Shown here piece by piece: positions 1 to 27,101 of a stretch of DNA of 27,773 bases. Positions within the stretch are counted from its first letter, which is position 1. Each line of letters opens with the position of its first letter. Origin of the DNA: a virus; IMG/VR virus record IMGVR_UViG_3300025890_002947, positions 1 to 27,773 of that record, one strand, 5' to 3'. The position numbers and the translations under genes are program-made. Under the pieces are notes generated by a model. It saw only the letters and a list, made by a program, of their open reading frames with translations. It did no database searches and had not been told where the DNA came from.

Positions 1-1190
1 TCCCCAAATCCGAACACGAAGTCCGCCTGCATGCCAGCAAACAGCAGTTCCGCCTTCTCTTCGATCCACAGCGAGACCATGTCCAACCGGTGAATGGAGG
101 CGAAATTCAAAATAGGCAGCGGCGACTTTGCCGTCGCGAGGTTCATCTCCACAACCACAGGAGGGTCGTTGTTCGCGGGGTCTGTGGAGCGCTTGAAATG
201 CGCGATGGTGCATGCTGCCGAGAGCTCGTACGTTTTTACCATGTGATCAGCAACCGTCTGTTGTCCGTCTCCACCTTCGAGCGATACCAGGATGTACTTT
301 GATTGCGTGTCCTTGGTAGCCGCACTCTTCCAATAGTGTTCATACAATTTGCAGCTGGGCTTGCCGTTGAACATTCCAACCACGATCGACGAGTCCGACA
401 GGACAAGCATTTCGAATTCCGAGACCGATTCCACCACTTCAAAAGGCGGCCCCATGTTCTTTCGCACCCACTTTTCCAACGATAGCGCGTCTCGAGCCCC
501 ATCAAAAGTGCGCGGGACATTGTCGACAAAGAATTTGATGGTTGGAAAGCCCTCGACGCCAAACGCTTCCGCAATGGTTTCGTCCCGGGTTGCATCGACC
601 TTCGCAAACACAACGTCTTCTCCTTTCATTGCAGTGGCGGCTTTCGCAAACTCTGGTTTCAAAGCTTTGCAGTGACCACACCACGGTGCGTAAAACTGCA
701 CAAAAACAAACGGACGATCTGTCAAAGTATGCTCTAGCGTTGCTTTACTCAGTTCCAACACGTCAGATTCGTCCACAGGCTCCTCAGCTTCTTCGTCGGG
801 TTCATCCTCAATCGACTGGGTGGCCCCCTCTTCTTCCTCGCTCACGACAGGCTCTTCGTAGCCTTCGACTTTCACCATGACTTCTTCCGATAGTGTCAGG
901 CCGCTCACTCGGTCACGCAAAAAGGCAACAAGCCCAATCAGTGTTCGGTTGCCTTCAATCGGCACTGGCTTTACTCCAGGCGAAAACAAGTACAGGGTGG
1001 GGAAGCCCTGGACTTGCACCCCGTCGTGGCTGGGGACATCGTTTGCTGTGGCGTCCAGCTTGGCCACGAGGACGGGGGAGTCTCCGTCCGAGGCCAATAT
1101 AGATGCCAGATACTCGAGTGTGGGCAACAATTTTTTGCAATGGCCGCACCACGGTGCATAAAACTCGACCAAAACGTGCTTTCCATCTTT
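1..1190 (-). CDS. Eukaryote-type protein disulfide isomerase fragment (partial, chimeric)
   Basis: Seen: an open minus-strand frame runs off the left edge without a stop. It encodes two thioredoxin domains, each with the [10 protein letters not shown] active site (coded near 1141-1164 and 670-690), separated by a Glu/Asp-rich linker (about 740-850) and followed by a b-type thioredoxin-fold region without a CxxC. Known: two APWCGHC domains with an acidic linker are typical of eukaryotic ER protein disulfide isomerases, which oxidise and isomerise disulfides. The DNA is clearly GC-richer than the phage genes to the right. There is no own start codon: the frame is fused to the phage helicase at the shared peptide KDGKHV (1173-1190). 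Inference: a fragment from a microalga or protist joined by mis-assembly. A true fusion is possible but unlikely. The PDI identity is secure; the physical linkage is not. Confidence 0.85.
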
Positions 1191-1853
1191 TCGTTCAATT
1201 GTTCCAGACAATCCCACTTTGTAACGTGCATAGTTTGTGTCTATAACTCTGGAAAAAGTTGGACTACTTACATGGTGCATCTCGTCTAGTATAACTGTGC
1301 CAAACATCTTGTTTATCTTTGTAATGTTTCTATACAAAGTCTGAGTGTTGCCAATTACTATTGGAGTATCTGTCTCAAACTTGCCACTGCCAATGACACC
1401 TGGAGTAAATCCATAGACTTTCTCTACTTCCTTTGCCCATTGGTTTCGTAGTGGTACAGTATGAGTTACAACTAGAGTTTTCTGTCCAAGTTTTCCAGCT
1501 ATAGCCAACCCCGTGAAGGTTTTACCCCAACTTACCCAAGCATTGATGATAGCATTATCTTGTATATCATTGTATACTTCTGCTTGGCTTTCTCGTAGCT
1601 CAAACTTAAACTCAGGAAACTCAACTGGTTCTAAGTATCGTTTATCTATAATTTCATAGTTCGAAGGTATTAAGTCTTGTCTGCCTATAGGAATAGTGAT
1701 TAGATTTTTTCTAACTATTCCCATATTTTTTATTACAAAAGGTGGCTCTTTTGGGTTGTACGAAGGTATACGATAAGTAAGTTCCTTATCGATTTCTCTT
1801 TGTAAATTTTCATCGCAATCCATGTAAATTCGATTGCTTAAAACGGCTTTCAT
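1173..1853 (-). CDS. UvsW/T5 D10-type superfamily 2 DNA helicase, N-terminal part only
   Basis: About 227 residues of a phage superfamily 2 DNA helicase, expected to remodel branched DNA in recombination and replication. Seen: an [11 protein letters not shown] element (about 84-94) like the LRxxQ start of these helicases, Walker A WGKT (109-112), a DEMHH box (190-194) as the DExH motif, and motif III-like [14 protein letters not shown] (214-227). The ATG at 1853 overlaps the TGA of the PhoH-like gene in ATGA. After KDGKHV the expected second RecA lobe is missing and the frame continues into thioredoxin domains. Family members normally continue with a RecA2 lobe holding the arginine finger, so this copy as assembled cannot be a working helicase. 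The true phage gene probably continues on DNA absent from this window. Confidence 0.8.
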
Positions 1854-2512
1854 ATACCTAAGTCTGTCCTTGCTGTAATATATTTCTTCACAAAGTCACT
1901 TCGCACTATGTCTTTAATTTCAAACTCTATTAGAGTAAATTCTTTACGCATGGCTTTTAGTACTCGAATAAAATCTTTTAGTCCATTCTTTTCTAGATCC
2001 GCCTGTCTAAAGTCTCCACAGAAGACTACTTTGCAGTTTTCTCCAATTCGAGTTATAATAGAATCTAACTCATGAAAAGACATATTTTGACACTCGTCAA
2101 CTATAACTACTGCGTCTCTCAGAGTAACTCCTCGTATGAAAGAGGTAGTCATAAAGTAAAATATTCCCTTTGTTTTCAGTATTTCATAAGCGTCTCCGCG
2201 CTGAAATAACTCTATACAAATGTCTTTGTAAGGCTCTTCGTATACAGAGGCCTTTTCTTTTTCGTTTCCAGGTAAAAATCCAATGTCTCTAGTAGGTACT
2301 GCACTTCTGATTAAGACTATTCTTTCTTTGTCATTCTTTAGAATGTCATCGAATCCTAAGTAGCAGGAGATAAAACTTTTACCTGTACCTGCCACTCCAT
2401 GTAATACTAGATTATTATCGGCTTCAAATGCTAATAGCTGATTCTGTGTTAGAGGCTCTATTTCTTGCAGATTCAAGTTTGCTGCTGCTATTAACCTATT
2501 TTTTCTTGCCAT
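1850..2512 (-). CDS. phoH: PhoH-like P-loop ATPase
   Basis: PhoH-family protein of about 220 residues, an ATPase/RNA-helicase-like family common in marine phages and used as a phage marker gene; its role in infection is unsettled. Seen: Walker [10 protein letters not shown] (38-46), Walker [11 protein letters not shown] (about 135-144), and the [17 protein letters not shown] stretch characteristic of the family. I chose the ATG at 2512, which shares a base with the TAA of the upstream gene (TAATG) and follows GGAGAAAGG; an ATG 15 bases earlier is also in frame. The stop overlaps the helicase ATG, so the three genes are translationally coupled. Confidence 0.88.
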
Positions 2513-3003
2513 TACACCTTTCTCCACGTGTCCTTTTTCTTCTCTTCAGAGAAGTCATAGACTACCCAAGGGTACTTATTAAGAAATAGTACGCCCGCCC
2601 AAGACATTCCAGATTCTGGAGGTCTTATTACTTTTAATGCGTTTTTTACTCCATTGAGTCGTATAATACTTGCTATACCTTTTCTTTCTACCTTTACTAT
2701 TTTTTCATACTTTAGCGATACTGTTTTTGTTTTTTCATAAATAAACGGAGTTCCGGCACTATCTATGAAATAGTTTGTTCGTTGTTTAATGAGCCCTACA
2801 ATGTCCCACACAAGAGTAGGCAGAGGAAACAAAGTAAACTCAGTTTGAAGTCTTCGTACTCCTAAGCTATTTCCAGCCATATTTCTATCATCTAAGAGTG
2901 CTCCTTCCATAAAAAGAAGTCCATCTACTGCCTCCCAATCAGAGGAAGGAAGTAGATAGACAGGAAACTGTATAGAAGACAGATTTTTAATTGTTCGAAC
3001 CAT
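2512..3003 (-). CDS. Conserved phage protein, unknown function
   Basis: A 163-residue protein that I do not recognise by family name. It has a mixed alpha/beta look, no membrane segment and no clear catalytic motif. The N-terminal half is hydrophobic and aromatic (FPVYLLPSSDWEAVDG, LFPLPTLVWDIVGL) and the C-terminus is basic (EEKKKDTWRKV). The start at 3003 overlaps the end of the DNA polymerase gene by 17 bases, and the stop shares a base with the PhoH start. That tight coupling places it in the replication operon, where a role in DNA metabolism is plausible but unproven. Confidence 0.7.
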   Translation of the reverse strand: MVRTIKNLSSIQFPVYLLPSSDWEAVDGLLFMEGALLDDRNMAGNSLGVRRLQTEFTLFPLPTLVWDIVGLIKQRTNYFIDSAGTPFIYEKTKTVSLKYEKIVKVERKGIASIIRLNGVKNALKVIRPPESGMSWAGVLFLNKYPWVVYDFSEEKKKDTWRKV

Positions 3004-5260
3004 ACTGTTTGCTAAACTTACCCATTGAATAGTCTTTACCTATCTCAAAATCACATCCAATTGGAGCACCATAGATACTTACACCTCGATCTAGCTGAAC
3101 AAAATGTTTAAGTATCTCACAATACTCTTCAATATCCGACTCGACAACTTCTGCAAGAATTGAGTCGTGTACCAGCGCAAATATTTTTGCATTGATACCT
3201 GTCTGTTTTATGTGGGCATGGGCATCTACTGCACCAAGCAGGTTGATGTCAGAAGCAGTAGACTGAACCAGAAAGTTGAGACCAGAACGAATCGTATGGC
3301 TTCTGATGGCTTTATCGGTGGAATGGACATTGTGTAGTCTCCGTTTGCGACCAAAAAAGCTATATATAAAGCCGTTCTGTTCGATAAATCGTTCGTTGTA
3401 AGTAATCCACTTTTTCAGACTGTGAAAAGTGTTGAAATAGTCAGTGATGACTTCTTGTGCTTCACCCTTAGTGAATATTGTTCCAGAACTTTTAGTCACT
3501 TCGTCACTAATCTTCTTAGCGCCCGCACCATACATAATGCCAAAGGTAACAGCTTTAGCAGCCTGACGTTCGGTACTGTATAGATCTGCAACTTCTTCTA
3601 CAGCACAAGGTAGCTTGAATACAGTCTTAGCAATTGTACTGTGAAAGTTTCCACCAGAACGAAACACCTCCATGAGTGCTTCATCGTGCGCAAGTTTAGC
3701 TGCAACATAAACCTCGGCAGTAGTCAAGTCCATAGCAACAATCTTGTTACCTTCAGATGCTTTGATACAGCCTTTGACTATAGGATTATCCCTAGGAATT
3801 TGCTGCATATTAAGCTTACCACTAGAACTAAGACGACCGCTAGTTGTGCTATGTAAATTAAATCCAGTCCTGAGGTGAGAGTCTCTATCAAGCTGTGGTA
3901 TGATTTTGTCCAAGTAAGTATTTTTAATTTTGGACTTTTGACGTATGTCCAAGATAAGTCCAGGTACTTCAGATTCTCTTGCAAGTATATTGAGTACTTC
4001 TGCATCCGTCGAGTCTGCTCCTGTTCCAGTCTTTTTTCCAACCGGCTTAAGACCAAGAAAGTCAAACAGAAGAGAACGGAGTTGCACAGTAGAATTAGGA
4101 TTAAAATCTTTACCATTTATAGCCTCGAATTTTTCTATTGCAGGATTCTCATACAAGGTAGAAATTGCTTTGTCTATATCTTGCTGCATGAGTTCTTGTG
4201 CGAATGACAGACGCTCTGCATCAAAAGGCACACCATTATCTTGAATACCTATCAAGAATCGAGTACCTGGAATAAGTAAATTATCATATACTGCTTTAAG
4301 TTTAGAATTTTCTTTGATCTTTTTGAACTTTTCAAAGATAATAAAAGTAACTAGAGCATCCATTGCTGCATACACTTTCATTACGTCAAAGGGAATCCAT
4401 TCCCAGCAGAAATCACTTTTAAGTACTTTATTATCTTTGCGATACTGATCCATCCAATCATACATTGGCTTCTCGTAATCGCCATAGTCTGTGTACTTGA
4501 TAGCAAGTTGCTTAAGTCCGTGTGTGCCCGGATTTTCATCTATCAAATAGTGAAGCAGCATTGTATCTTCGAAGTTTGGAAATTTAACATCGAAGTGATA
4601 CTCAAAGAACGCAATGTCGAACTTGGCATTGTGAAAGACTACAGTTTTCTTAGCAAAGAGCTCTCGCATAAGATCTTCTGTAGTTTCATCAAATACAGAA
4701 GTATCTAGATAGGCGGCAGTGCTGCCATCGTAGCATAGAGAAATACCAAGCATATAACCGTCACGAGGGTATAGACCAGTAGTCTCACTGTCAAGTGCAA
4801 TGTATTCGTTATCGTGTGCAATTGCTTTTCTAAGAAATTCATTAGCAGTCTCCGTGTCTTGTATACCAAAAGCGATAGAGTCATCTATCACCGCGTCCAC
4901 TTTTTCTCCGCTGATGTACTGAATGATGTTTGTTTTGGAATCTTCCCAAGTTTTTCTAGCTTCTGGCTTAAAAGCAAGCATTGATGGATTTATAACAGGC
5001 AGGAATTTATCTTCTACGAGCTTTCCAGAATATTCTGTTACAGAGTTTATTTTTGTAAAGTATTTCAATGCTTCACTACCTACCAGAATTATCCAGTCGT
5101 ACAGCGAAGTATCAATATCAAGATCGCAGTCTCGTTTCAAGACTTTCTTGATTGTAGGGTCTGAGCAGAGTTGAAATTGCTCGAAGTCAAAAGCATTATC
5201 AAATTCTTTTGAATAGTTTGTTCTACTTGGTTTAGTTTCTACTAAGGCAACTTTAGCCAT
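2987..5260 (-). CDS. polA: DNA polymerase I-like (family A) with 3'-5' exonuclease
   Basis: Replicative phage polymerase of 757 residues. Seen: an N-terminal region without 5'-nuclease features; a proofreading exonuclease with Exo I DSET (D157, E159), Exo II FHNAKFD (D215) and Exo III YAAMD (Y297, D301); and a polymerase domain with motif A around D511, motif B RQAAKAVTFGIMYG (R565, K569, F573, Y577) and motif C VHDS (D699). Two points are unusual. Motif A reads MDLTTAEVYVAA instead of DYSQIELR, and motif C has Ser where most family A enzymes have Glu (HDE). F573 matches Phe762 of E. coli Pol I, a residue linked in the literature to fast, virulent-type phage polymerases. The gene overlaps primase by 8 bases upstream and the unknown 163-residue gene downstream. 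Confidence 0.95.
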   Translation of the reverse strand: MAKVALVETKPSRTNYSKEFDNAFDFEQFQLCSDPTIKKVLKRDCDLDIDTSLYDWIILVGSEALKYFTKINSVTEYSGKLVEDKFLPVINPSMLAFKPEARKTWEDSKTNIIQYISGEKVDAVIDDSIAFGIQDTETANEFLRKAIAHDNEYIALDSETTGLYPRDGYMLGISLCYDGSTAAYLDTSVFDETTEDLMRELFAKKTVVFHNAKFDIAFFEYHFDVKFPNFEDTMLLHYLIDENPGTHGLKQLAIKYTDYGDYEKPMYDWMDQYRKDNKVLKSDFCWEWIPFDVMKVYAAMDALVTFIIFEKFKKIKENSKLKAVYDNLLIPGTRFLIGIQDNGVPFDAERLSFAQELMQQDIDKAISTLYENPAIEKFEAINGKDFNPNSTVQLRSLLFDFLGLKPVGKKTGTGADSTDAEVLNILARESEVPGLILDIRQKSKIKNTYLDKIIPQLDRDSHLRTGFNLHSTTSGRLSSSGKLNMQQIPRDNPIVKGCIKASEGNKIVAMDLTTAEVYVAAKLAHDEALMEVFRSGGNFHSTIAKTVFKLPCAVEEVADLYSTERQAAKAVTFGIMYGAGAKKISDEVTKSSGTIFTKGEAQEVITDYFNTFHSLKKWITYNERFIEQNGFIYSFFGRKRRLHNVHSTDKAIRSHTIRSGLNFLVQSTASDINLLGAVDAHAHIKQTGINAKIFALVHDSILAEVVESDIEEYCEILKHFVQLDRGVSIYGAPIGCDFEIGKDYSMGKFSKQYGSNN

Positions 5261-6080
5261 ATAATTTAGTCTCCAGTTTCTTTACCTGAGATTCGCCAAG
5301 TGCTCCAGGGTCAGTATTCCTGAGAAATACGTTTCTGGAAAAGAGATCAACTTTCTCGCACATAGCTTTTATTGTTTCCGCAGCGTTTTGTCCTGCATCA
5401 TCACCATCAAAGAAGATATCTACTTGTGTGGCTCCTTGCATCTTGAGCAAAGATAATTTATCTTCTGAGATGTTCTTTGTGCCAAAACAACACGCTACAT
5501 TCTTTATTCCTTTATCATATAAGTTTATCATATCATAGATGCCTTCGACAAGCATTATTTTCCCGTTTCGTGCAGATACTGCAGGGAAAAGGGGCAGCTT
5601 TGCACCTGGGGGAGATATTTTATACTTAGGATCTCCACCTGTGGTGTGTCTGCCATTGAAGGCTACTATCTTTCCTGATATGTCTCGAATGGGAAATACA
5701 ATTCTTCCCACATGGTCACTGCTTCCATTTTGAAAGGCTTCGAAGTGTTTGTATGTCTCTGGTTTGATTTGTCTCCAATTACCAATGTAAGGAACTGAAT
5801 TGGAGGGAAAAGGTAAGCCTACAGTCTCCGCACGTTTCTCGATAATTTTTCTTCTCAGAAGTTCTCTGCGTATTTGTAGCTGACTTACCTTTTCACCATA
5901 AAGAGTAAATACATTTCCTTTGAATCCACATGAAAAACAGTTATATACTCCAGTAATCTGATCCACTCTCATACTTGGATTTCTATCTGCATGATTTGGA
6001 TTCAGACAACTAACTAAAAAATCTTTGCCTTTTGGTTGAAAGGTTATTTTCTTGTTGTTAAGTAGTTCTTCTACTGTCAT
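5253..6080 (-). CDS. DnaG-like primase (CHC2 zinc finger plus TOPRIM)
   Basis: Makes RNA primers for the polymerase encoded next to it. Seen in 275 residues: an N-terminal zinc finger with C25, H30, C48 and C51 and the characteristic NPSMRVDQITGVYNCFSCG context; and a TOPRIM domain with LVEGIYD (E179) and FFDGDDAGQNA (D225, D227) for metal binding. The protein is short: the C-terminal helicase-binding region of bacterial DnaG is absent, as in many phage primases that act with a separate DnaB-like helicase (here 6431-7783). The ATG at 6080 overlaps the stop of the preceding small gene (ATGA). Confidence 0.92.
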   Translation of the reverse strand: MTVEELLNNKKITFQPKGKDFLVSCLNPNHADRNPSMRVDQITGVYNCFSCGFKGNVFTLYGEKVSQLQIRRELLRRKIIEKRAETVGLPFPSNSVPYIGNWRQIKPETYKHFEAFQNGSSDHVGRIVFPIRDISGKIVAFNGRHTTGGDPKYKISPPGAKLPLFPAVSARNGKIMLVEGIYDMINLYDKGIKNVACCFGTKNISEDKLSLLKMQGATQVDIFFDGDDAGQNAAETIKAMCEKVDLFSRNVFLRNTDPGALGESQVKKLETKLYG

Positions 6081-6367
6081 TTACCAATATCTTCAATGTT
6101 TGTGGTTGAAATAACTTGATAAGCTCCTTTGTTGTATGCAGGAGCTACTGGATAATTCTTGGATATTTCTTTTTTGTAATCGTCATCTATCTTGTCACAG
6201 CTGCCAGCCAGGCTAGTGCGTGATGGATAGTCGGGAGTATCCGGGCGAAAAACCTTACTACTAGGAACATAAGGCTTCCACACAGGCTTGACTCTGCGAG
6301 GCTTTTTTGGAAGTTTTTTACGATTACGAGAGAGGGGTCTGTAAGCGGTATTTGTATAAACTAACAT
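6077..6367 (-). CDS. Small basic proline-rich protein, unknown function
   Basis: A 96-residue protein, not recognised. The first half is rich in Lys, Arg and Pro (SRNRKKLPKKPRRVKPVWKP), suggesting nucleic-acid or protein binding; the second half is more acidic and polar. I chose the ATG at 6367 because it follows CAGGAG and lies just downstream of the promoter at 6393-6421; a longer in-frame ATG upstream would begin inside the promoter and encode an unlikely hydrophobic leader. The stop overlaps the primase ATG, so it is the first gene of the primase-polymerase-PhoH-helicase transcript. Confidence 0.7.
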   Translation of the reverse strand: MLVYTNTAYRPLSRNRKKLPKKPRRVKPVWKPYVPSSKVFRPDTPDYPSRTSLAGSCDKIDDDYKKEISKNYPVAPAYNKGAYQVISTTNIEDIGK

Positions 6368-6392
6368 GACTACTCCTGTTATTGAATAGTAT

Positions 6393-6421
6393 ATTATACT
6401 AAAAAATAACAAAAGTGTCAA
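6393..6421 (-). promoter_or_regulatory. Sigma70-type promoter for the primase-polymerase operon
   Basis: On the minus strand TTGACA (6416-6421) and TATAAT (6393-6398) are separated by 17 bases, and an A/T-rich block lies upstream of the -35. A leader of about 20 bases carries CAGGAG before the ATG at 6367. This is a perfect consensus match and fits the start of the downstream operon. Confidence 0.85.
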
Positions 6422-6430
6422 GAAATATTT

Positions 6431-7783
6431 TTAGATGTCGTCTATATTCTCTTCGCTTTTTACATCCGCATCTTCTTTTTCTTTAGGGGACAGTGCGGTT
6501 TCTGGGCCTATCTGTAGAGTTTCCCAGTTCATTGTGGAGGTAAAGGACTTCATGGAGGCTGATCGCATTTTTACACAGTTAAAAGTAACGCACTGATCTT
6601 CTTGATCCCAAGTCTCAAGAGCATACGCGGCATCTGCTGCATCGAGTATGCCTTTGGCAAATCGGGCTTCTCCGGTTGCATCCGTCTGATAAGGAGAGAA
6701 TACAGGAACTTCATACTCCTGAGCCATCGACTTGAGTGCTTTGCTTACTTCTATCTGCTCTGTCCAATCGTACTGACCTGCACGAGAGGGAGCAGAAGAA
6801 CGCTTTACTTGATTTATGTAATCAACAATGATAATTCCAGGTGCTATCCTTTGAACTTGTTTGTCCAAAGTAGCTCTGATCTTTGGTAAGGTCAAAGACG
6901 CATCATACACAACGTCTAGCTGTTGAGTCGGGAGAAGCTCGTGGCTAGTCTTAAGTGTGTGATGCAACTTATCAAAGTCCCTGTGATCATCATATTCTTT
7001 CAAGCGGTTCTGACCGTCTACATAACGATCAGCCCACCATGAAGCAACCTTTTGCCATTCAACAACATTTAAGCTCTTCATCTTTAGCCTGGAGAATGGT
7101 ATCCCCGTAGCGATTGAACAGCAGCGTTGCAGAATGGATCTGCTATCCATCTCTATAGTGAAATAGATAGCAGACTTTCCGGAGGCAACGACTCGGTTTG
7201 CAATATTAGCACAAGTAATAGACTTACCTGCACCACGACGACCACCGACAAGAATCAAATCTCTAGGAGAGAAATGAATCTCGCCATCGTATTCATCGTT
7301 CAAACCAAGTGCAACGTACCTCTGAAGATCTTCATCAGATTCCCACAAAGGAATACTTTGCATACTCTCTTCAGGGCTTTGAATGTCTACTTTCTCTTCG
7401 ACATCCAAAACAATCTGGTGAAGCTCATTTATAGACTCTTCGGCATCAAGAAATGCTATTGATGAGTCTACATATTTGTCGAGAGACGTGAGAATCTCCT
7501 TTTGAGCGTATTCATTCTTTAGATACTGTAATAGTGTAAAAGCATCAGAATCAACTTCCTGTCCATTCTGAACAGCGTACACCTTTTCTTGTGTACTACT
7601 GTCTCTTACAGCAGCATGAAGATCGTCAAAAGTGGGAAGCGTATGAAACTTCTCAGAGTGCTTAGTCACTGCATCAAAAAGAGTATGATACTCTTTAGGC
7701 AGATAATTTTTACGCACAAGGCTCCAAGTATCAGAGTCCTGACACTTAAGTACCTGCTGTAAAAAAGCACTAGCTAGATTCAA
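6431..7783 (-). CDS. DnaB-like replicative helicase
   Basis: A RecA-fold hexameric 5'-3' DNA helicase of 450 residues that unwinds the fork and pairs with the primase at 5253-6080. Seen: an N-terminal helical domain (about 1-140); Walker A LILVGGRRGAGKS (176-188, K187); AIYFTIEMDSRSI (205-217), the DnaB motif following Walker A; Walker B GIIIVDYINQV (316-326, D321); and an acidic C-terminal tail. The start is the TTG at 7783 preceded by GGGAG eight bases upstream; the nearby ATG and GTG codons lie in other frames and run into stops. A terminator (7803-7832) sits upstream, so expression depends on readthrough or an unseen promoter. Confidence 0.92.
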   Translation of the reverse strand: MNLASAFLQQVLKCQDSDTWSLVRKNYLPKEYHTLFDAVTKHSEKFHTLPTFDDLHAAVRDSSTQEKVYAVQNGQEVDSDAFTLLQYLKNEYAQKEILTSLDKYVDSSIAFLDAEESINELHQIVLDVEEKVDIQSPEESMQSIPLWESDEDLQRYVALGLNDEYDGEIHFSPRDLILVGGRRGAGKSITCANIANRVVASGKSAIYFTIEMDSRSILQRCCSIATGIPFSRLKMKSLNVVEWQKVASWWADRYVDGQNRLKEYDDHRDFDKLHHTLKTSHELLPTQQLDVVYDASLTLPKIRATLDKQVQRIAPGIIIVDYINQVKRSSAPSRAGQYDWTEQIEVSKALKSMAQEYEVPVFSPYQTDATGEARFAKGILDAADAAYALETWDQEDQCVTFNCVKMRSASMKSFTSTMNWETLQIGPETALSPKEKEDADVKSEENIDDI

Positions 7784-7802
7784 TCACATTTCTCCCGAAC
7801 GA

Positions 7803-7832
7803 TAAAAAGCGGAGGGAATACACCCCCCGCTT
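7803..7832 (-). terminator. Rho-independent terminator after the HTH-array gene
   Basis: On the minus strand a 10-pair stem (AAGCGGGGGG with CCCTCCGCTT, one G-U pair) has a six-base loop and is followed by TTTTTAT. It lies 13 bases after the stop of the 7845-8570 gene. Confidence 0.85.
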
Positions 7833-7844
7833 CAAAGAACTAAC

Positions 7845-8570
7845 TTACTGTGCAGCTTTCTCTTTGCGAGCAGCTCCGTCATAATCTGATGCGATCAGAC
7901 CACGACGAGTAAGCATAGTTTTAACACCACGAACAGTTTTGCCAATAGTAGTAGCGATTTCTTCTACAGTAAGAGTAGAAGTGTCATCGATCTCTGCCAA
8001 AGGATCTACTTTCGCGCCACCTTTAGTAGTAGCTTGTACAGGAATAGCATCGATAGAACCGGCACGAAGAAGGCTGAGAGCCTTGCCTCGAACAGAGTTT
8101 ACAGATCGACCCATTGCTTCTGCAATATCTTCTACATAGGAACCATTCTGAACAAGCTCAATGAATCGAACTTCTTCTTCATCGGTGTAAGTCTTTACAG
8201 TTTCACGAACAGGAGCAGGCTTTACATGAGAGGTAAGTTCCATAGAAAGAATCTTGCCCTGAATCTGCTTCGCTGTGAAAGTTTCATTTTCAAAATACTG
8301 AGCAATCTCAGCATAGGTGTAGTTACCACTATTGTCATTAACAAAAGTAGCAAGAGTAGACTCCTGCTCGGCGGTGAAAGCCTTGCTAGAAGATGTAGAA
8401 GCAAGTTCTACTTCATAGCCCATTTTACGCAGTTTGCTAGAAACTGAACGGGCTGAGGTTTCCAAGTTCTCTGCTGCGCCTGCAACAGTTGCTTGGGATA
8501 CAGGGCTCTCATCGCCTACAAAAGTAGTAAGAGCTGCTGTACGTTCGTCATTCCACTTAGGGACTGCCAT
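7845..8570 (-). CDS. Four-unit Myb/SANT-like helix-turn-helix array protein
   Basis: A 241-residue protein with about four successive HTH units, each ending in a recognition-helix-like segment: TSARSVSSKLRKMGYEV (about 37-53), TAKQIQGKILSMEL (about 98-111), RSVNSVRGKALSLLRAG (about 154-170) and KTVRGVKTMLTRRGLI (about 210-225). Each is preceded by a helix of the WNDERTAAL, FTAEQESTL or YTDEEEVRF type, recalling Myb/SANT domains. It resembles single-unit proteins elsewhere in the window (11063, 11503, 19648, 23996, 24965). Likely a sequence-specific or architectural DNA-binding protein; target unknown. GGAG lies 8 bases before the ATG and overlaps the ligase stop codon; a strong terminator follows, suggesting high expression. 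Confidence 0.75.
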   Translation of the reverse strand: MAVPKWNDERTAALTTFVGDESPVSQATVAGAAENLETSARSVSSKLRKMGYEVELASTSSSKAFTAEQESTLATFVNDNSGNYTYAEIAQYFENETFTAKQIQGKILSMELTSHVKPAPVRETVKTYTDEEEVRFIELVQNGSYVEDIAEAMGRSVNSVRGKALSLLRAGSIDAIPVQATTKGGAKVDPLAEIDDTSTLTVEEIATTIGKTVRGVKTMLTRRGLIASDYDGAARKEKAAQ

Positions 8571-8571
8571 A

Positions 8572-9321
8572 CTAATTCTCCAAAAAATTTAATAAGTTGT
8601 CAATTACTGTTAAGCCTCTATCCTTGGCCTGCTTAGTCTTAATGGACTCCTGTCCACTCTCATTGACTAAGATAGTAACATCCTTTGTTAAAGTTGATTT
8701 TACAAGAAAGCCTCGGCTTTTCAATTCCTTTGCAGCTTCGGCTTTGGTTTTATAGCTAGATAACTTACCAGTAATACACACAATTCCTTTGAGTTTTTGC
8801 ATTACAGAATTTTTGAAAGTCCAATCAAAAGGAAGTGTTGTGCAGAAATAATCTAAACATTCTTCCATCCAGCTAATAAGGTTGGCTGTAGCTTTTTCTC
8901 CTAGTCCGGCGTCTCTACAAGAAAAATCAGTTATATCAAATATAGTTTTATGAGTTTTTGATAATTTTTCTGTAGCTGTTCTTCCGATAAGAGGTATGCT
9001 AAAGCCAGGTAAAATGTCGTTCAAGGACAAAGACTTAGAATTCTCTATCTCTACGAATAACTTCTTACCTAATTTTTCAGACGAGAGAGCCTCGATAATT
9101 TCATTCTCAGAAAGAGAATAAATATCACAAATAGTGTGAAGCTCTAGTTTTTTAATGGTGGATACGCCGAGGCCTTTGATCTTGAGAGTTTTGCAAAAAC
9201 TCTCAATCTGCTTCAGGCTGCGCTCACCACAAGACGAGTTAGTACAATAAAGTATATCATTTCTCAACTGTAGCACTACGCCACAAGATGGGCAAGCACT
9301 TGGAAATACTATATTTTGCAC
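8572..9321 (-). CDS. ligB: NAD+-dependent DNA ligase, C-terminal subunit (zinc finger, HhH, BRCT)
   Basis: The DNA-binding half of a bacterial-type LigA. Seen in 249 residues: a four-Cys zinc finger (C10, C13, C26, C31), helix-hairpin-helix repeats (KGLGVSTIKKLEL, PLIGRTATEKL, DAGLGEKATANL; about 50-145), and a BRCT domain at the C-terminus (KGIVCITGKLSSYKTKAEAA onward, about 168-249). It has no adenylation domain; that is encoded by the next gene upstream. Phage T5 likewise has a two-gene NAD+ ligase. The start is GTG at 9321 after AGAGGAAG, with its own promoter at 9351-9379. Together the two products should seal nicks using NAD+. Confidence 0.9.
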   Translation of the reverse strand: MQNIVFPSACPSCGVVLQLRNDILYCTNSSCGERSLKQIESFCKTLKIKGLGVSTIKKLELHTICDIYSLSENEIIEALSSEKLGKKLFVEIENSKSLSLNDILPGFSIPLIGRTATEKLSKTHKTIFDITDFSCRDAGLGEKATANLISWMEECLDYFCTTLPFDWTFKNSVMQKLKGIVCITGKLSSYKTKAEAAKELKSRGFLVKSTLTKDVTILVNESGQESIKTKQAKDRGLTVIDNLLNFLEN

Positions 9322-9350
9322 TAAGTTTCTTCCTCTGAATTTAAGTATAT

Positions 9351-9379
9351 ATTATAGGGGACTTTACATAAAAAGTCAA
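9351..9379 (-). promoter_or_regulatory. Sigma70-type promoter for the ligase B subunit
   Basis: Minus strand: TTGACT (9374-9379) and TATAAT (9351-9356) with a 17-base spacer, followed by a leader of about 23 bases with AGAGGAAG before the GTG start. One mismatch in the -35. Confidence 0.8.
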
Positions 9380-9390
9380 GGTTTATTTTT

Positions 9391-10314
9391 TTAAAGGTCA
9401 ACGCGTCTAACGATTCTTGGGATAATATCACCAGACCTTATTACTTCAACTTGACATCCAAGTTTCAGATCAAGACTTCGTATGTAGTTTATATTGTGTA
9501 GAGTTGCACGAGAAACAGTAGCTCCTTCAATGTCAACAGGCTCTAGAATTGCTACAGGGCTTACGACCCCGCTTTTGCCTACTTGCCACTCTACGTCAAC
9601 CAGAGTAGTTATCTTCCCCTGCTTCTGAGTTTTCAATGCAAAAGCACCTTTTGGGTGATGTGCTGTGTATCCCATACTTTCAAACTTCTCGTAGGAGTTT
9701 ATTCGATACACAGTTCCATCAGTTGGAAACTTAGAGCAATCGTCAAGATAAGCTGTTCTGAAGCCCAGGCTGCGAAGCATAGCCATAGCAGCATCGTAAG
9801 TAGGCAATTTATATGGCTGCATTTCATAGCCAAAGAAATACAAGTCCCGGAAAGAAAAATCCTCCGTAGACTTGAGATTCAATGCACCCGCTGCATAGTT
9901 ACGAGCATTGGGTATACTTGAAGGAGCAACTACTTCTCCAGTAATTTGCAAAGGCCAAGTTACATCGACTCTCGTAGGAACTAAGAACTGCATCTTATCC
10001 GTGATGTCTTGTCCTTTGATTCCGTCTCCTCTGGTGAGTGCGAGTCTTAGAACTCCATTTTCATACAGCAAAGACACGGCTGCACCATCAAGTTTTGGAC
10101 TCAGGCACACTTCGTCTAAACGAAAAGGGGGCTTCATAAGATTGAAGCATTTTTGAAGAGAGTACATTCTGTAGTGGTGAGGTATTCCCTTGTTCATAGG
10201 AAACCCAACTTCTACATAATGATACTTATCTGCTAGTCTATCCCATTCTTCGTCTGAAAGAATAGGCTCGCCCTTAAAATACTTTTGAGCAGCATAGTCT
10301 AAGAAAGTTTGCAT
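9391..10314 (-). CDS. ligA: NAD+-dependent DNA ligase, adenylation/OB subunit
   Basis: The catalytic half of the split ligase, 307 residues. Seen: a short N-terminal region resembling the NMN-binding Ia domain (YAAQKYFKGEPILSDEEWDRL); MYSLQK (50-55), equivalent to the MLSL element; the adenylated lysine in SPKLDG (K74); TRGDGIKGQDIT (about 94-105); the motif containing ITGEVV; and an OB fold with GCQVEVIRSGDIIPRIVRRV at the C-terminus. It lacks the zinc finger, HhH and BRCT, which the 8572-9321 gene supplies. The ATG at 10314 follows AGAGGT; the promoter is at 10343-10371. Each half has its own promoter, so subunit ratios could be set separately. Confidence 0.92.
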   Translation of the reverse strand: MQTFLDYAAQKYFKGEPILSDEEWDRLADKYHYVEVGFPMNKGIPHHYRMYSLQKCFNLMKPPFRLDEVCLSPKLDGAAVSLLYENGVLRLALTRGDGIKGQDITDKMQFLVPTRVDVTWPLQITGEVVAPSSIPNARNYAAGALNLKSTEDFSFRDLYFFGYEMQPYKLPTYDAAMAMLRSLGFRTAYLDDCSKFPTDGTVYRINSYEKFESMGYTAHHPKGAFALKTQKQGKITTLVDVEWQVGKSGVVSPVAILEPVDIEGATVSRATLHNINYIRSLDLKLGCQVEVIRSGDIIPRIVRRVDL

Positions 10315-10342
10315 TTTTTACCTCTGTAAAACTGTAAAGAAT

Positions 10343-10371
10343 AGTATACTAAATTTCAGGTAAAATGTCAA
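10343..10371 (-). promoter_or_regulatory. Sigma70-type promoter for the ligase A subunit
   Basis: Minus strand: TTGACA (10366-10371) and TATACT (10343-10348), 17-base spacer, with a leader carrying AGAGGT ahead of the ATG at 10314. Confidence 0.8.
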
Positions 10372-10374
10372 GGA

Positions 10375-10674
10375 TTATTTGTAAATATCCTGGATTAAAT
10401 CTGCGAAATGTTCTTCTATTACTTCTTTTGATTCTGCAAGAGAAAGTATTTCAGTCAAACCAATAAAGAGCTCTCGAGTATTTGAAAAGTCTATTGCCAT
10501 AGAAATTCCTTCTTTCGAAGGCTTCCATTCTTCTTCAAAGTCTAAATAATATTTTCGCAGTCCTAGGTATTCTACACCTCGAAAGGTGCTTATTGTGAGA
10601 CGTACTTGATGGCCTTTTTCAGAATCATAATGTATAACTCGTTCATAGACCTCAGGGGCTTCGTGTAATTCCAT
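10375..10674 (-). CDS. PC4-like single-stranded DNA-binding protein
   Basis: A 99-residue protein. Seen: the segment QVRLTISTFRGVEYLGLRKYYLD, then EEEWKPSKEGISMAIDF, then a C-terminal helix from about 68 to 99. This follows the pattern of PC4/YdbC proteins, in which a curved beta-sheet with a (V/I)R-W/F-x-G-x-x-x-x-x-I/L-R-x-Y-Y signature and a K-P-x-x-x-G-I turn binds single-stranded DNA as a dimer. A PC4-like protein is known from phage T5. Position between the ligase and other replication genes agrees with an ssDNA-binding role in replication or transcription. No experimental support is available here. Confidence 0.65.
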   Translation of the reverse strand: MELHEAPEVYERVIHYDSEKGHQVRLTISTFRGVEYLGLRKYYLDFEEEWKPSKEGISMAIDFSNTRELFIGLTEILSLAESKEVIEEHFADLIQDIYK

Positions 10675-10676
10675 AA

Positions 10677-10943
10677 CTACCTCTGGTTCTTTAAAACTGA
10701 GGATAGGGGTACTACACTGGTCACATTCTTAGGTTTTAGGAGTCGATAAGAATCTGTGTCCCAGCAAAAGAATAAAACTGTAGAGTCGTTTTCTTTTGTT
10801 CGACTTTTCTTATTTTGAATGTACTCCGTAGTAAAGTCTAACGTACAAACATTGTACTTTAGCTTCTTAGAGTTTTCACTCCTGTAGGTGATGATGGCGT
10901 CGCCATAATTTCTGACTACAGCCTTTAGGTCTTCCTTTTTCAC
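10677..10943 (-). CDS. Small phage protein, unknown function
   Basis: An 88-residue protein I do not recognise. It reads as a small beta-rich domain: DAIITYRSENSKKLKYNVCTLDF, then a charged linker, then STVLFFCWDTDSYRLLKPKNV. There are no membrane segments. It lies two bases upstream of the PC4-like gene in the same direction, so the two are likely co-transcribed and perhaps functionally linked. Confidence 0.6.
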   Translation of the reverse strand: MKKEDLKAVVRNYGDAIITYRSENSKKLKYNVCTLDFTTEYIQNKKSRTKENDSTVLFFCWDTDSYRLLKPKNVTSVVPLSSVLKNQR

Positions 10944-11016
10944 TGTTTCTCCTTAATACCAGGTTAAGCAAACTTTTTTGCAACTGCTGAACTTCAAGGT
11001 GAAACCTATGAATGTA

Positions 11017-11054
11017 AGAAAACACCGAGAAGCCGAAACTCCTCGGTGTTTTTA
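11017..11054 (-). terminator. Rho-independent terminator (possibly bidirectional)
   Basis: A nine-pair stem AACACCGAG (11021-11029) with CTCGGTGTT (11042-11050) around a 12-base loop. It is flanked by T-rich runs on both strands (TTTTT on plus; TTTTCTT on minus). It directly follows the 11063-11425 gene, so its main use is probably on the minus strand. Confidence 0.8.
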
Positions 11055-11062
11055 GCCTACTA

Positions 11063-11425
11063 TTAGTTATTATTTACTGAGTTGATTACTCCGGTAAAAT
11101 ACTGCGCGGCTTTACCAGTTAGTTTACTGATAATATCCTCATCAACCTCTTGACCAGTATCAGTCAGAGCAGCAATCAAAGCATCGCAAGCTGCCTGCTT
11201 AGAAATCCTAGTACCACCTGATGATCCTGAAGAGGATGAGGCTGCAGCAGCAGGAGATTTTTTAACGTATACATTATTTTTAGTTAGAATCATACGAACC
11301 CCGTTGGGGCTTTCTTCCAGATCTTCTGCAATCTCTTTAACGAGTTCCATCGAATTCTCAGGAGTAGGGTTACCATCCTGATAGGCTTCAATGGCGGCCA
11401 ATCTTTTTACTTCGTCCCATGCCAT
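11063..11425 (-). CDS. Small HTH-like protein with Ser/Ala linker
   Basis: A 120-residue two-part protein. Residues 1-54 contain an HTH-like unit (VKRLAAIEAYQDGN, then EIAEDLEESPNGVRMILTKNNVYV) matching the repeat pattern of the 7845-8570 protein. A low-complexity Ala/Ser/Gly linker follows (about 58-70), then a helical C-terminal domain (SKQAACDALIAALTDTG, EDIISKLTGKAAQYFTGVI). The gene has a private promoter (11463-11492) and terminator (11017-11054), so it is a single-gene unit, probably strongly expressed. Likely DNA-binding; no known partner. Confidence 0.65.
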   Translation of the reverse strand: MAWDEVKRLAAIEAYQDGNPTPENSMELVKEIAEDLEESPNGVRMILTKNNVYVKKSPAAAASSSSGSSGGTRISKQAACDALIAALTDTGQEVDEDIISKLTGKAAQYFTGVINSVNNN

Positions 11426-11462
11426 GAAAAATATTCCTTCTTTTCAGTAAGTTTGAAAATAT

Positions 11463-11492
11463 ATTATATGAGGTTTTTAACATTATTGTCAA
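11463..11492 (-). promoter_or_regulatory. Sigma70-type promoter for the 11063-11425 gene
   Basis: Minus strand: TTGACA (11487-11492) and TATAAT (11463-11468) with an 18-base spacer, followed by a leader of about 35 bases carrying AAGGAA before the ATG at 11425. The upstream flank is A/T-rich like the other promoters. Confidence 0.8.
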
Positions 11493-11502
11493 GAATTATT
11501 TT

Positions 11503-12213
11503 TTACAATCTTGATAAATCAACTCCATACTTTTTTAAGTGTTCTAGCTTGCCCAAATCGTAGGCAAGTGAATAAGCAAAAAACCCGCCTGATGTAACAC
11601 CGGGAAAGAAACTATCTGACCAGTCTCCATCTTCCACAATGTAAATACTATAAAGTTTAGAAGCGTATTCATTTTCGTAATCTTTTGTAATTACACCCTT
11701 CAAAGAGTCCTGGTGGTCAATAGAGTATTCTTTCTTTACTACAGCGGTTTTGTGGTACTGAGCAGACCAAACGATCTCACCTTCTTCAAATGTCTCTGAC
11801 ACTGCATTATCTGGTAGATACGCTACTCGTGCCTGCTCTTCCTTTGTCCCTCTATCGGGAACTCCTATCTTTTCTAGCAAAGTTTTTATGAAGCCAGGGC
11901 TTCTAAACAATGAAGAAGCTATTTCAGAAACAGAAATGCCATGCAAGTAGCTTGTGACTGCCTCTGCAATCTCATAGTTTGTCGCAGGCTTTCCTCTGTT
12001 CTGTGCTTTTCGTTTTTGTATAAACTCTTTACGATCTTTATACTCTTGAATTATATTTGCAAGTCTAGTTGTATTGTAACTTATATTGAGCATTTCGCAG
12101 GCGGAACGCTTCGTAATCTTTTCCTGTGAAGGGGACTCCAAGGCCTCGATTACTCGTTGGATGTTTGCGTCCGACAGGTTCTCGTGCTCTTTCTTCTTTA
12201 TTCCTCTTCTCAA
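11503..12213 (-). CDS. HTH DNA-binding protein
   Basis: About 236 residues. Seen: an N-terminal helix-turn-helix (KITKRSACEMLNISYNTTRL), a basic stretch (KDRKEFIQKRKAQNRGKPAT), a second HTH-like unit (EIASSLFRSPGFIKTLLEKIGVP), and a C-terminal aromatic domain of unknown fold. It resembles phage regulators that combine two HTH units. I place the start at the TTG at 12213 because CTGGAG precedes it; an in-frame ATG at 12252 would add 13 residues but lacks a clear ribosome site. Either start overlaps the end of the diphosphohydrolase-like gene by well over 100 bases in another frame. The latter's C-terminal tail may be poorly conserved. Confidence 0.65.
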   Translation of the reverse strand: MRRGIKKKEHENLSDANIQRVIEALESPSQEKITKRSACEMLNISYNTTRLANIIQEYKDRKEFIQKRKAQNRGKPATNYEIAEAVTSYLHGISVSEIASSLFRSPGFIKTLLEKIGVPDRGTKEEQARVAYLPDNAVSETFEEGEIVWSAQYHKTAVVKKEYSIDHQDSLKGVITKDYENEYASKLYSIYIVEDGDWSDSFFPGVTSGGFFAYSLAYDLGKLEHLKKYGVDLSRL

Positions 12214-15922: not shown

Positions 15923-16005
15923 TTTTTCCTAGATATATAGAGTGTTATGGCAAAGCCTAAATAACACATAGATAAAATAAAGAAAGAACCTACAAGTTCT
16001 TCCAT
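15919..16005 (-). CDS. Tiny single-helix membrane protein (28 aa)
   Basis: The 28-residue product begins MEELVGSFFILSMCYLGFAI and ends YISRKK: one transmembrane helix with a basic C-terminus, presumably cytoplasmic by the positive-inside rule. The ATG at 16005 lies inside the last codons of the copper-monooxygenase gene (overlap 16 bases) and the stop overlaps the next ATG. Such coupling on both sides suggests a real gene. Function unknown; lysis timing or a partner of the exported proteins are possibilities. Confidence 0.5.
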   Translation of the reverse strand: MEELVGSFFILSMCYLGFAITLYISRKK

Positions 16006-17246
16006 GTAAATGCCCCAAAGAACATTTCATCTTCTGACATCTGTCCCCAAGGCACACTTCTGCTTGGATCAGGATTCATTAGATTCTCTGCTGAATTATC
16101 AAAAACTCCTTCTACATGAAGTACTGTACCCGCAGGTATATACTTCGGCTCTCTCCATGTATATGATAACTGCCAAGCATACTCATAGCGTGGAATATCA
16201 ATTAGCTCTTCCCAAGTGCCATCTTCGTAGTATGCTGTTGCTTTCATACTCTTGCCACGAAAGTGCATATGAGGCAAGAAAGTATGCAGCATTATATCAT
16301 CTTGTAAAACAATTTCAGCTTCCTGCACAAAATTAGGATCATATGGAGGAATGTTTGTCCATGTATCTGGGAAGATACAAGCACAGTCACCTGCCATTCT
16401 TTCCTCTGGTACTACTCCTTCATTATGAAAGTATAGTCCAATTCGTGCTTTGTCTGTTCTTGCAGTACCATCAGGAGTGTAGTGCAGTTGTAGATTTACA
16501 ACTGAACCTGCACGTAACAATCCACCAGTATTTTCATCGTAGAAGTCAGGAGTACCGCCTGGAACATATGCACTGATTTGTGCATAGTCCATGTTTCCCT
16601 GTCCTTCACCTGATACACCAAGTAGATTCATGTTACGTTCACCCGGCAAAGAAACAGTATTCAACATATGATGCATTACAGTTGGCTCGGAGGGTAAAAA
16701 TTCTGAACCCCGTAGCCATTTGTCTTCTGTTAATCCCAAAGCTACACTTGTGTAGCGATAAGGAATTGCATTCGGGCCAAGAGTTCCTACTGCTGGAATT
16801 TCTTGAGCAGGCACTTCAATAATCATATCAGGCTCGCCATGTACCCACTCTGAAGTAGAGTAAACTGTCTCTAACAGAGGGTCACGGATCTCCCCGCGAG
16901 ATATTTCAAAAGGTACTTGTGAGCCTGCGTTAATCCATTCAACAATAGTCTCCATTTCTGTATGACTTAATGTTCTGTGATTAATGATACGATCAGCGTA
17001 TTTGCGATCAATCTGGCCGGGCGGCATCTGTAGTGTTGTAACTGCTTCTTTAATTGCAGGTGCAAATGCTTGTAACATTCTGTAGTCAGTCATTGCCCAT
17101 GGTGCAATACCTCCTTCGCGGTGACAGCTTTGACACTGCTCTACAAATATTGGTGCTACATTTTCTGCGTAGTCTATAGCAACATCATCATGTGCATATG
17201 CAGCAGATGTAAATAGACTACTGGCTAGCAATACTAATTTTTTCAT
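15990..17246 (-). CDS. Exported c-type cytochrome/PHM-like copper monooxygenase (copy 2)
   Basis: A 418-residue secreted protein. Seen: signal peptide MKKLVLLASSLFTSAAYAHD; one haem c motif CQSCH (C38, C41, H42) in a small cytochrome domain (about 20-110); then a copper type II, ascorbate-dependent monooxygenase-like domain. Its candidate copper ligands are all visible: HH in TVMHHMLN, H in LQLHYTPDG, HMH in FLPHMHFRGK and M in SEDEMFFGAF. The stretch IDIPRYEYAWQLSYTWREPK and DNSAENLMNPDPSRSVPWG match bacterial proteins of this fusion type. Known: PHM enzymes hydroxylate using two copper sites; the substrate of bacterial fusions is unknown. Start ATG 17246 follows GGAGGAAAG; it overlaps copy 1 by 29 bases. 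Confidence 0.85.
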   Translation of the reverse strand: MKKLVLLASSLFTSAAYAHDDVAIDYAENVAPIFVEQCQSCHREGGIAPWAMTDYRMLQAFAPAIKEAVTTLQMPPGQIDRKYADRIINHRTLSHTEMETIVEWINAGSQVPFEISRGEIRDPLLETVYSTSEWVHGEPDMIIEVPAQEIPAVGTLGPNAIPYRYTSVALGLTEDKWLRGSEFLPSEPTVMHHMLNTVSLPGERNMNLLGVSGEGQGNMDYAQISAYVPGGTPDFYDENTGGLLRAGSVVNLQLHYTPDGTARTDKARIGLYFHNEGVVPEERMAGDCACIFPDTWTNIPPYDPNFVQEAEIVLQDDIMLHTFLPHMHFRGKSMKATAYYEDGTWEELIDIPRYEYAWQLSYTWREPKYIPAGTVLHVEGVFDNSAENLMNPDPSRSVPWGQMSEDEMFFGAFTWKNL

Positions 17247-18528
17247 TTCTTTCCTCCAATATTGCGTCATATCCTTCATCATCTAAATGAGTAATAGCTA
17301 TCCACGCGTGAGACATCTCGTCACCCGTTCTACTGCCATCCACTACCCACATATCAGGATCAGGATTGTTAAGATTATCGACAGTATTGTCATACCACTG
17401 CTTGATTACTAATACAGCACCTGTTGGAACAAGAGGTGCTACATCTTCTGCGTATATATGACTGTGATGCCATGTTGCTGACCAATTTGAAATCTGACTT
17501 ATAGATTCTGTACGTCCTGTCTCAGGATAATAAATCTCTAAACTAGCTGCGTTCATACGCAAATGACCGTGTGGTTGAAAACTATCAATACGGACAGGAT
17601 GGTCAAAGCTATGAAAGCCTTGAGTCATTGCATAACCATGAGGAGGAATAATTAAATGTCCATTCTCATAGCCTTCTCGTAAAGGGTACAAACGAAGATC
17701 TTGATTATAGGTATTCTCTTCGTATCCTTCATCATGAAACCAAAGACCGATCTCTACTACGTTGTCTTCAATCATCTGGCCTTCGGCTGTTGCTCCAACT
17801 CCACCCGGAAACATATGAATGTCCCATCGTACTAAGGAATTTGCAGGCATTGTACGGCATACACCTTTCGGCATTACTTCGCCCCACTTACCCATTGCAT
17901 ACTCGGTTAGCTGTCCATGTGGTACTAACTCACCTTCTTCATCGTACATATATACGTCAGAGTTAGCATGGTGCACTACTGCTGCTGCATCTCCCCGAGG
18001 CTTTACTTGGACAGCTTTGATACATCTACTTTCTGTCAAACCTGGGTCTACGAATTCCTTACTCCATAAGTCATTTCCTTTTGCAGGAATATCATATGCT
18101 TGGGAAGGAACAATTAAATCTGGTTGTCCAAACATAGCTGCAAAACGCCAATCATCTGGATTTGGCATTTCAGGCATTTGAGGAGTAATGTCGGCTTCTC
18201 CATAGGGAGACCCCGCATTGACCCATGCTACAATTGAATCTATATCTTCCTGTTTAAGTCGCCAATCACCTTCGAGGTCTTGTATGCCAATATGCTGATC
18301 ATAAGCATATGGTGGCATTTCTCGACTGGCTACTTTATAGGAAATGAGAGGTGCCCAGGGTCGAAGCTGCTCATAGCTTTCAAAACTCATCGGGCCTATA
18401 CCACCAATACGGTGGCAAGTTACACAGTTATTATTGATAATGTTAGCAATTCCATTTGTGTAAGTGGCTTCATCTGCAGAAGCCTGTGTGGACAAGGCTA
18501 TTGCTGCTGCTATCGCTAGTTTTTTCAT
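17218..18528 (-). CDS. Exported c-type cytochrome/PHM-like copper monooxygenase (copy 1)
   Basis: A 436-residue paralogue of the next gene, with the same order. Seen: signal peptide MKKLAIAAAIALSTQASA; haem c motif CVTCH (C35, C38, H39); the GIGPMSFESYEQLRPWAP segment; then the copper domain with HH in VVHHANSD, H in WDIHMFPGG, HGH in FQPHGHLRMN and M in GDEMSHAW. WYDNTVDNLNNPDPDMWV matches the DNS-x-NxxNPDP block of copy 2. The two differ greatly outside these motifs, so the duplication is old or they arrived as a pair. The product should be periplasmic and needs the host Sec system, haem lyase and copper. ATG 18528 follows AGAGAAG; a terminator-like hairpin lies just upstream. Confidence 0.85.
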   Translation of the reverse strand: MKKLAIAAAIALSTQASADEATYTNGIANIINNNCVTCHRIGGIGPMSFESYEQLRPWAPLISYKVASREMPPYAYDQHIGIQDLEGDWRLKQEDIDSIVAWVNAGSPYGEADITPQMPEMPNPDDWRFAAMFGQPDLIVPSQAYDIPAKGNDLWSKEFVDPGLTESRCIKAVQVKPRGDAAAVVHHANSDVYMYDEEGELVPHGQLTEYAMGKWGEVMPKGVCRTMPANSLVRWDIHMFPGGVGATAEGQMIEDNVVEIGLWFHDEGYEENTYNQDLRLYPLREGYENGHLIIPPHGYAMTQGFHSFDHPVRIDSFQPHGHLRMNAASLEIYYPETGRTESISQISNWSATWHHSHIYAEDVAPLVPTGAVLVIKQWYDNTVDNLNNPDPDMWVVDGSRTGDEMSHAWIAITHLDDEGYDAILEERNEKISIASQ

Positions 18529-18541
18529 ATGCTTCTCTTTT

Positions 18542-18571
18542 AAAAATGGGGCCAAAGTTTCCCATGGCCCC
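18542..18571 (-). terminator. Rho-independent terminator or attenuator before the cytochrome pair
   Basis: Minus strand: GGGGCCA (18571-18565) pairs with TGGCCCC (18554-18548), and ATTTTT follows. It ends 14 bases before the ATG at 18528, so the cytochrome/copper genes need readthrough; it may act as an attenuator. Confidence 0.7.
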
Positions 18572-18705: not shown

Positions 18706-19116
18706 CTAGTCAATACTAATGGTTACGGGGCGTTCCTCTTCAGGTAATTCTTGCTGCAAGGAAATACAAAGCAATCCGCGGTCCATGTAGGCTTTTTCTA
18801 ATGTAATATAATCCCCTACTTTGAACTGGCGGCTAAAACATTTACCACTTAATCCTTTGTAAAGGTATTCCTCATCTGAACTTTCTGTCTGCTTTGTAGT
18901 GCCTTTCACGCTGAGTACGTTTTTATGTAGCGAGATCTCAACATCCTCTTTAAGCCATCCAGGTATTGCAAGCTCAACACGATACCCGGTTTCGCCTACC
19001 TTTACGATGTTATAACGAGGATAACCTCCATCTATTGTACTCGCAGAGAAGTCATTTTCTAAGCGGTCAAACCCAACAAAAAATTTATTAAAGTCTGCCA
19101 TAGACAATCTAGTCAT
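18706..19116 (-). CDS. hsp20: Small heat-shock protein (Hsp20/alpha-crystallin)
   Basis: ATP-independent holdase of 136 residues. Seen: N-terminal MADFNKFFVGFDRL (IbpA-like start), an alpha-crystallin domain (about 33-125) with YNIVKVGETGYRVELAIPGW, EDVEISLHKNVLSVKG and a beta-rich middle, and a C-terminal ISI element that fits the I-x-I anchor of the family. Hsp20 genes are frequent in marine phages and may protect phage proteins during assembly. The ATG at 19116 follows AAGGAG. It lies in one transcript with the small genes upstream (promoter 19538-19566). Confidence 0.92.
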   Translation of the reverse strand: MTRLSMADFNKFFVGFDRLENDFSASTIDGGYPRYNIVKVGETGYRVELAIPGWLKEDVEISLHKNVLSVKGTTKQTESSDEEYLYKGLSGKCFSRQFKVGDYITLEKAYMDRGLLCISLQQELPEEERPVTISID

Positions 19117-26460: not shown

Positions 26461-27078
26461 TTATTGTCCATTTTTGATTTCCTGAACCAATCGTTCCAGT
26501 AAAGTGATGCGCCCAACCCGCTTATCATTGTAATCAATTACAATCCAATCTGTGCCGATGCATTCCTCTTTTGCGAGTGTCATGCGATCAAAAGAGTCGA
26601 GCGCGAGCTTATCGTTAGCGGAAAATTTCCAGTAAACGAGAGGCGATTTTTTGCGCTTGTTCAATCTGTATTGCTGCTCGTCTTTTGAGATTGAAAGGTA
26701 AAATTTAATAACGCGCGTTCCAGATTGTTGTTCCCAATCGCAAACATTCGCTAGAAAATTTTGTGCTTGCGTTTCGCTACACCATGCATTCACGCGCTGT
26801 ACCAGTGCGCGGCTATACCATGAGCGATCAAAAAATCGAACCTGCCCTCGCTCTGGTAACCGTTTATTCCAATAGCCAAACCAATTTTTCATAGCTCGCT
26901 TGCTAGGCTTTTTTGAATGTTCAATTGAGAATAGATTCGGTGGCAGATATTTTGTGATCATTTTAATTGTGCCGCTTTTTCCTGCCGAGTCCCTGCCCTC
27001 GAAGACAATAGCGAGCGAGTCGTTATTATTCTCAACCAAACGGTTCAATTCTGCTAGTAATTTTTTCTTGCTAGGCAT
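26461..27078 (-). CDS. ppk2: Polyphosphate kinase 2 family protein
   Basis: A 205-residue P-loop kinase. Seen: Walker A FEGRDSAGKSG (26-36, K34), the RFFDRSWYSRALV stretch (81-93, D84, R85) equivalent to the PPK2 FDRSWYNR motif, LSISKDEQQYRLNKR (128-142), PLVYWKFSANDK (146-157) like the WK-x-S-x-x-D element, and DWIVIDYNDKRVGRITLLE at the end. Known: PPK2 enzymes phosphorylate nucleoside mono- or diphosphates using polyphosphate or the reverse. It is shorter than many members, lacking an N-terminal extension. ATG 27078 follows GAGG; an upstream terminator (27102-27130) separates it from 27147. Substrate and direction cannot be told from sequence. Confidence 0.88.
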   Translation of the reverse strand: MPSKKKLLAELNRLVENNNDSLAIVFEGRDSAGKSGTIKMITKYLPPNLFSIEHSKKPSKRAMKNWFGYWNKRLPERGQVRFFDRSWYSRALVQRVNAWCSETQAQNFLANVCDWEQQSGTRVIKFYLSISKDEQQYRLNKRKKSPLVYWKFSANDKLALDSFDRMTLAKEECIGTDWIVIDYNDKRVGRITLLERLVQEIKNGQ

Positions 27079-27101
27079 TTTTGTAATCCTCAGTTTATGG
27101 T

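Follow-up and report, generated by a model that had tools for sequence, protein, structure and literature searches.

The open frame at the left end of the window

The left end of the DNA analysed here (IMG/VR virus record IMGVR_UViG_3300025890_002947, positions 1 to 27,773; this whole stretch of 27,773 nucleotides is hereafter the "window") raises an unusual question: does a phage encode a helicase fused to a eukaryotic protein disulfide isomerase (PDI), or have two unrelated DNAs been joined in a single contig? The minus-strand ORF 3–1853 contains 617 codons and no stop before the end of the contig cuts it off, and inside it the translation passes, with no break of the frame, from the RecA1 lobe of a phage helicase to a eukaryotic-type PDI. 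This one-frame join, to which the preliminary description had drawn attention, is confirmed by both translation and Pfam, and the position given there for the junction is likewise accurate. The answer supported by the data presented below is that the window is almost certainly a chimeric contig, in which a tailed phage (1173–27773) and the PDI gene of a eukaryote (1–1172) would have been joined either in silico or in the library. The relevant features, with the evidence for each in brackets, are the following:

1..1172, minus strand: foreign segment, an internal fragment of a eukaryotic-type PDI (Pfam, solved relatives, GC3, viral and GTDB searches)
1172..1173, no strand: very probable chimeric junction (end of the sibling matches; scans with the junction 24-mer and the native 30-mer)
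1173..1190, minus strand: AAAGATGGAAAGCACGTT, the final stretch of phage identity ahead of the join, coding for KDGKHV; possible microhomology (alignment with L001–L007 and L012)
1173..1853, minus strand: 5′ part of a T5 D10/UvsW-like helicase, 227 codons, RecA1 lobe (phrog_16, Pfam ResIII, DNA identity with siblings)
1850..7783, minus strand: phage replication genes framing the helicase, namely PhoH-like, DNA polymerase, primase and DnaB-like helicase (PHROGs, collinear siblings)

The helicase and PDI portions of the frame

The helicase portion matches phrog_16 ("DNA helicase", E 1.2e-33) and, over residues 84–221 of the ORF, Pfam ResIII (E 7e-17); its translation contains a Walker A (SWGKT) and a DExH (DEMHH) motif, and the nearest helicases from named phages, 47% identical, belong to T5-like phages of Salmonella and Escherichia. 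On sequence grounds, bases 1173–1853 are genuine phage DNA and represent the first RecA lobe of the family of branch-migration helicases that includes T5 D10 and T4 UvsW (T5 D10: PMC5180179). The second RecA lobe, expected in a helicase of this type, is not found by Pfam in the window ORF; whereas the full-length helicases of the sibling phages have 427 amino acids and include this lobe, as is the rule in the family, in the window its place is taken by foreign sequence, a difference that would reflect an artefact rather than a variant of the enzyme.

The remaining 390 codons constitute the foreign part and encode two thioredoxin domains (APWCGHCK) and an acidic linker, after which a b-like region begins. 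Pfam Thioredoxin is recognized in two stretches of the ORF (E about 1.7e-48 to 4.8e-48), both domains bear a CGHC active site, as seen in the translation and in the Pfam matches, and the best solved relatives are eukaryotic PDIs (E about 1e-48). The same succession of two CGHC thioredoxin domains, acidic linker and b-like region characterizes the PDIs of the eukaryotic endoplasmic reticulum (PDI, ERp57/PDIA3, PDIA4); unlike these, the window holds only an internal fragment, incomplete on both sides, one end being cut by the join and the other by the end of the contig, with the N-terminus, the C-terminus and any ER-retention signal lying outside the sequence.

The two portions also differ in composition. 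The helicase part has a GC3 of 0.295 and seven further phage genes in the window lie between 0.28 and 0.38, vs 0.628 for the PDI part, and the GC content climbs leftward from about 0.36 to 0.53, as had been noted from the start. The per-codon fit to phage usage shows near-zero excess through codon 220 and then falls to −0.24 and to −0.44, the drop of the codon log-likelihood being located at 1193–1074. The PDI piece is unadjusted to the codon usage of the phage.

Relatives of the phage half

Using the phage half as a query, 80 loci were fetched from IMG/VR. The closest are L002 (the same contig as L082, IMGVR_UViG_3300025816_001372), which is 99.94% identical to window 1170–7919 (4 mismatches in 6,750 bases), and L001 (the same contig as L083, 3300004097_000713), which is 99.96% identical to window 1170–5993 (2 mismatches in 4,824); to the left of the junction both diverge completely from the window. 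Base 1173 is the last position at which L001, L002, L003 and the window agree before the break, the extension of the match to 1170 consisting of two chance matches that follow a mismatch at 1172. The matches of L003, L004, L005, L006, L007, L085 and L086 (93–97% identity) also end at 1170 or 1173, and most of the more distant relatives (68–75%) that reach the helicase gene end at 1167–1174.

In the real phage the native frame reads on as ...KDGKHVVFRDYF... and extends to a protein of 427 residues in L001, L003, L004, L005 and L012, while L002, L006 and L007 display the same native continuation until their contigs end. Altogether, a complete helicase frame of 427 codons that continues past the junction point is present in 76 of the 80 loci, the other 4 running off the contig, and the motif WCGHC occurs in none of the 80. 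Downstream of the helicase, L001 and L087 (the same contig as L004) share a 139-aa gene and the gene after it; beyond these two, L087 has SbcD- and SbcC-like genes, so named from their translations.

A separate observation made on these loci concerns L084 (the same contig as L003), in which a 683-base insert (6147–6829) separates the primase gene from that of the DNA polymerase and codes for an HNH-endonuclease-like protein (DHIIPMQG...HVRENLQII). The window lacks this insert, whose insertion site would be near window 5252–5260; the insert is likely a mobile gene of the homing-endonuclease type.

The junction and the origin of the PDI fragment

The junction-crossing 24-mer GATGGAAAGCACGTTTTGGTCGAG has no other exact occurrence in 2.9 million IMG/VR contigs. 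Its native counterpart, the 30-mer AAAGATGGAAAGCACGTTGTGTTTCGTGAC, is present in five IMG/VR contigs and therefore serves as a positive control for the pattern scan. For the PDI side, a 26-mer occurs nowhere else in IMG/VR in exact form, the PDI protein finds no match in protein searches of IMG/VR and of the GTDB species genomes (collections that leave out eukaryotic genomes) nor in 12 sibling records, and a donor was found in phage records at neither the DNA nor the protein level. The donor of bases 1–1172 is likely a eukaryotic PDI gene, probably that of an alga or another protist.

As to the mechanism, the two DNAs would have been joined where their sequences briefly resemble each other, around AAAGATGGAAAGCACGTT; the frame would stay open across the join because both genes presumably read the shared bases in one and the same phase. 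A random same-strand join is in frame about one time in three, and to this extent an in-frame junction counts against a misjoin. An in-frame join is readily given, on the other hand, by homology-guided joining along KxGKxV-like codons. The extent of the similarity had been put at 18 bases (1173–1190) able to serve both genes. The phage-side bound at 1173 holds, but the length of 18 is a fair guess rather than a measurement, because only the donor gene, which is absent from the collections searched, would tell how far the similarity extends into the phage side. Likewise, the suggestion that a KDGKHV-like segment may stand at this point in either family is compatible with known PDIs, in that these have K-x-V at the junction point (ERp57) where the phage has DGKHV; this compatibility does not extend to the sharing of the full 18 bases.

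Alternative explanations

The alternative that makes the locus attractive is a real and very recent illegitimate recombination, by which a single phage lineage would have captured a eukaryotic PDI fragment, giving rise to a RecA1–PDI fusion protein. That the frame remains open across the junction without a stop, and that both halves resemble intact coding sequence, is what such an event would leave behind. Nevertheless, phages 99.94–99.96% identical on the phage side keep the native gene, so that only an extremely recent insertion would fit (0.05% divergence); PDI is found in 0 of the 80 relatives, no second contig in IMG/VR shares the junction, no phage DNA lies beyond the PDI piece, which ends at the contig end, and its codon usage is unameliorated. 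Furthermore, the product would be deprived of the second RecA lobe, so that a helicase of recombination and replication would be truncated, and the source of the DNA would have to be a eukaryote, an organism not among the hosts of the phage. None of the papers listed by literature searches on PDI together with UvsW-type helicases is on such a fusion. We judge the fusion to be an artefact because near-identical phage contigs have an ordinary, complete helicase at exactly that place, and the "exciting alternative" of the preliminary description is not supported and, in our estimation, very improbable. A fusion of the helicase with a native thioredoxin-type gene of the phage lineage borders on the negligible. 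Thioredoxins are indeed encoded by phages; in the present case the second domain gives a match to phrog_22 (E 2e-8), and matches to the PDI protein come from 36 phage records, with a query coverage of 22–26% and 30–36% identity among the matches listed. These matches are only thioredoxin-sized, for which reason this candidate was rejected: no phage record covers 80% of the PDI protein, the match to eukaryotic PDIs is far stronger (E about 1e-48), the fragment has not one but two CGHC domains with an acidic linker and a b-like region, and the siblings have no PDI, be it among the 12 records searched or, as WCGHC, in the 80 loci.

The joining of two genomes through a short shared stretch, which was also the reading preferred at the outset, is instead strongly supported by the native continuation in siblings of 99.94–99.96% identity, to which is added that the foreign half differs in composition and is without relatives in viral collections. 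The join itself might have occurred before sequencing, by ligation, PCR or multiple-displacement amplification, with template switching at a microhomology. The short in-frame similarity suits template switching as well as it does a k-mer join; on the other hand, a join made by the assembler fits the same evidence equally, and chimeras made in the library are normally of low coverage and seldom win in assembly, so that we consider this physical origin possible but unlikely.

Chimeric contigs are a known class of artefact in metagenome assemblies, reportedly among the subjects of a viromics benchmark (PMC5610896). Like these, the window would join two compositions sharply near a contig end while siblings keep the native continuation; unlike the usual case, the join falls in frame and therefore looked like a gene fusion. 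The practical significance is that of a warning only: the leftmost 1.17 kb of a record listed as viral are foreign and probably eukaryotic, and any protein collection derived from this record would contain a false helicase–PDI fusion and suggest a false gene transfer from eukaryote to phage. Trimming of the record at 1173 is advised.

The remainder of the window

From 1173 rightward the window is ordinary phage: contig G007 is collinear with it over 1173–12158 (95%), and so, in a looser way, is the 78.7-kb record G012 as far as base 27080. No other misjoin came to light, the right half having been compared in effect with one distant relative only.

A few genes in this part deserve mention in their own right. 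As judged from the translations, the NAD-dependent DNA ligase is apparently split into two adjacent genes (8572–9321 and 9391–10314, both minus strand), an arrangement found in T5-like phages. A small heat-shock protein of the HSP20/alpha-crystallin type is encoded at 18706–19116 (minus strand; Pfam E 1.2e-14).

Two neighbouring minus-strand genes, 15990–17282 and 17218–18555, encode proteins of like architecture, 430 and 445 amino acids long, with a signal-like N-terminus, near which each has one CxxCH haem-binding motif (CQSCH and CVTCH, respectively), and with HH and HxH histidine motifs further along, both of which may recall the copper type II ascorbate-dependent monooxygenases. Neither protein matches a Pfam or PHROG family; the 430-aa protein has only a sub-threshold match to cytochrome c6 (NCBIfam), and a search of 50,697 phage records gave nothing for the 445-aa protein. 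The region is conserved in G012 with 71–75% DNA identity, and the two proteins may constitute a phage-borne pair of redox enzymes.

Finally, a protein of the polyphosphate kinase 2 family (PPK2; Pfam E 2.2e-47) is encoded at 26461–27078 (minus strand), with 86% DNA identity in G012. Relatives of this protein occur in 14 phage records, all below 60% identity (33–42% among the matches listed), and several of these records are those of uncultured phages with genomes of over 600 kb.
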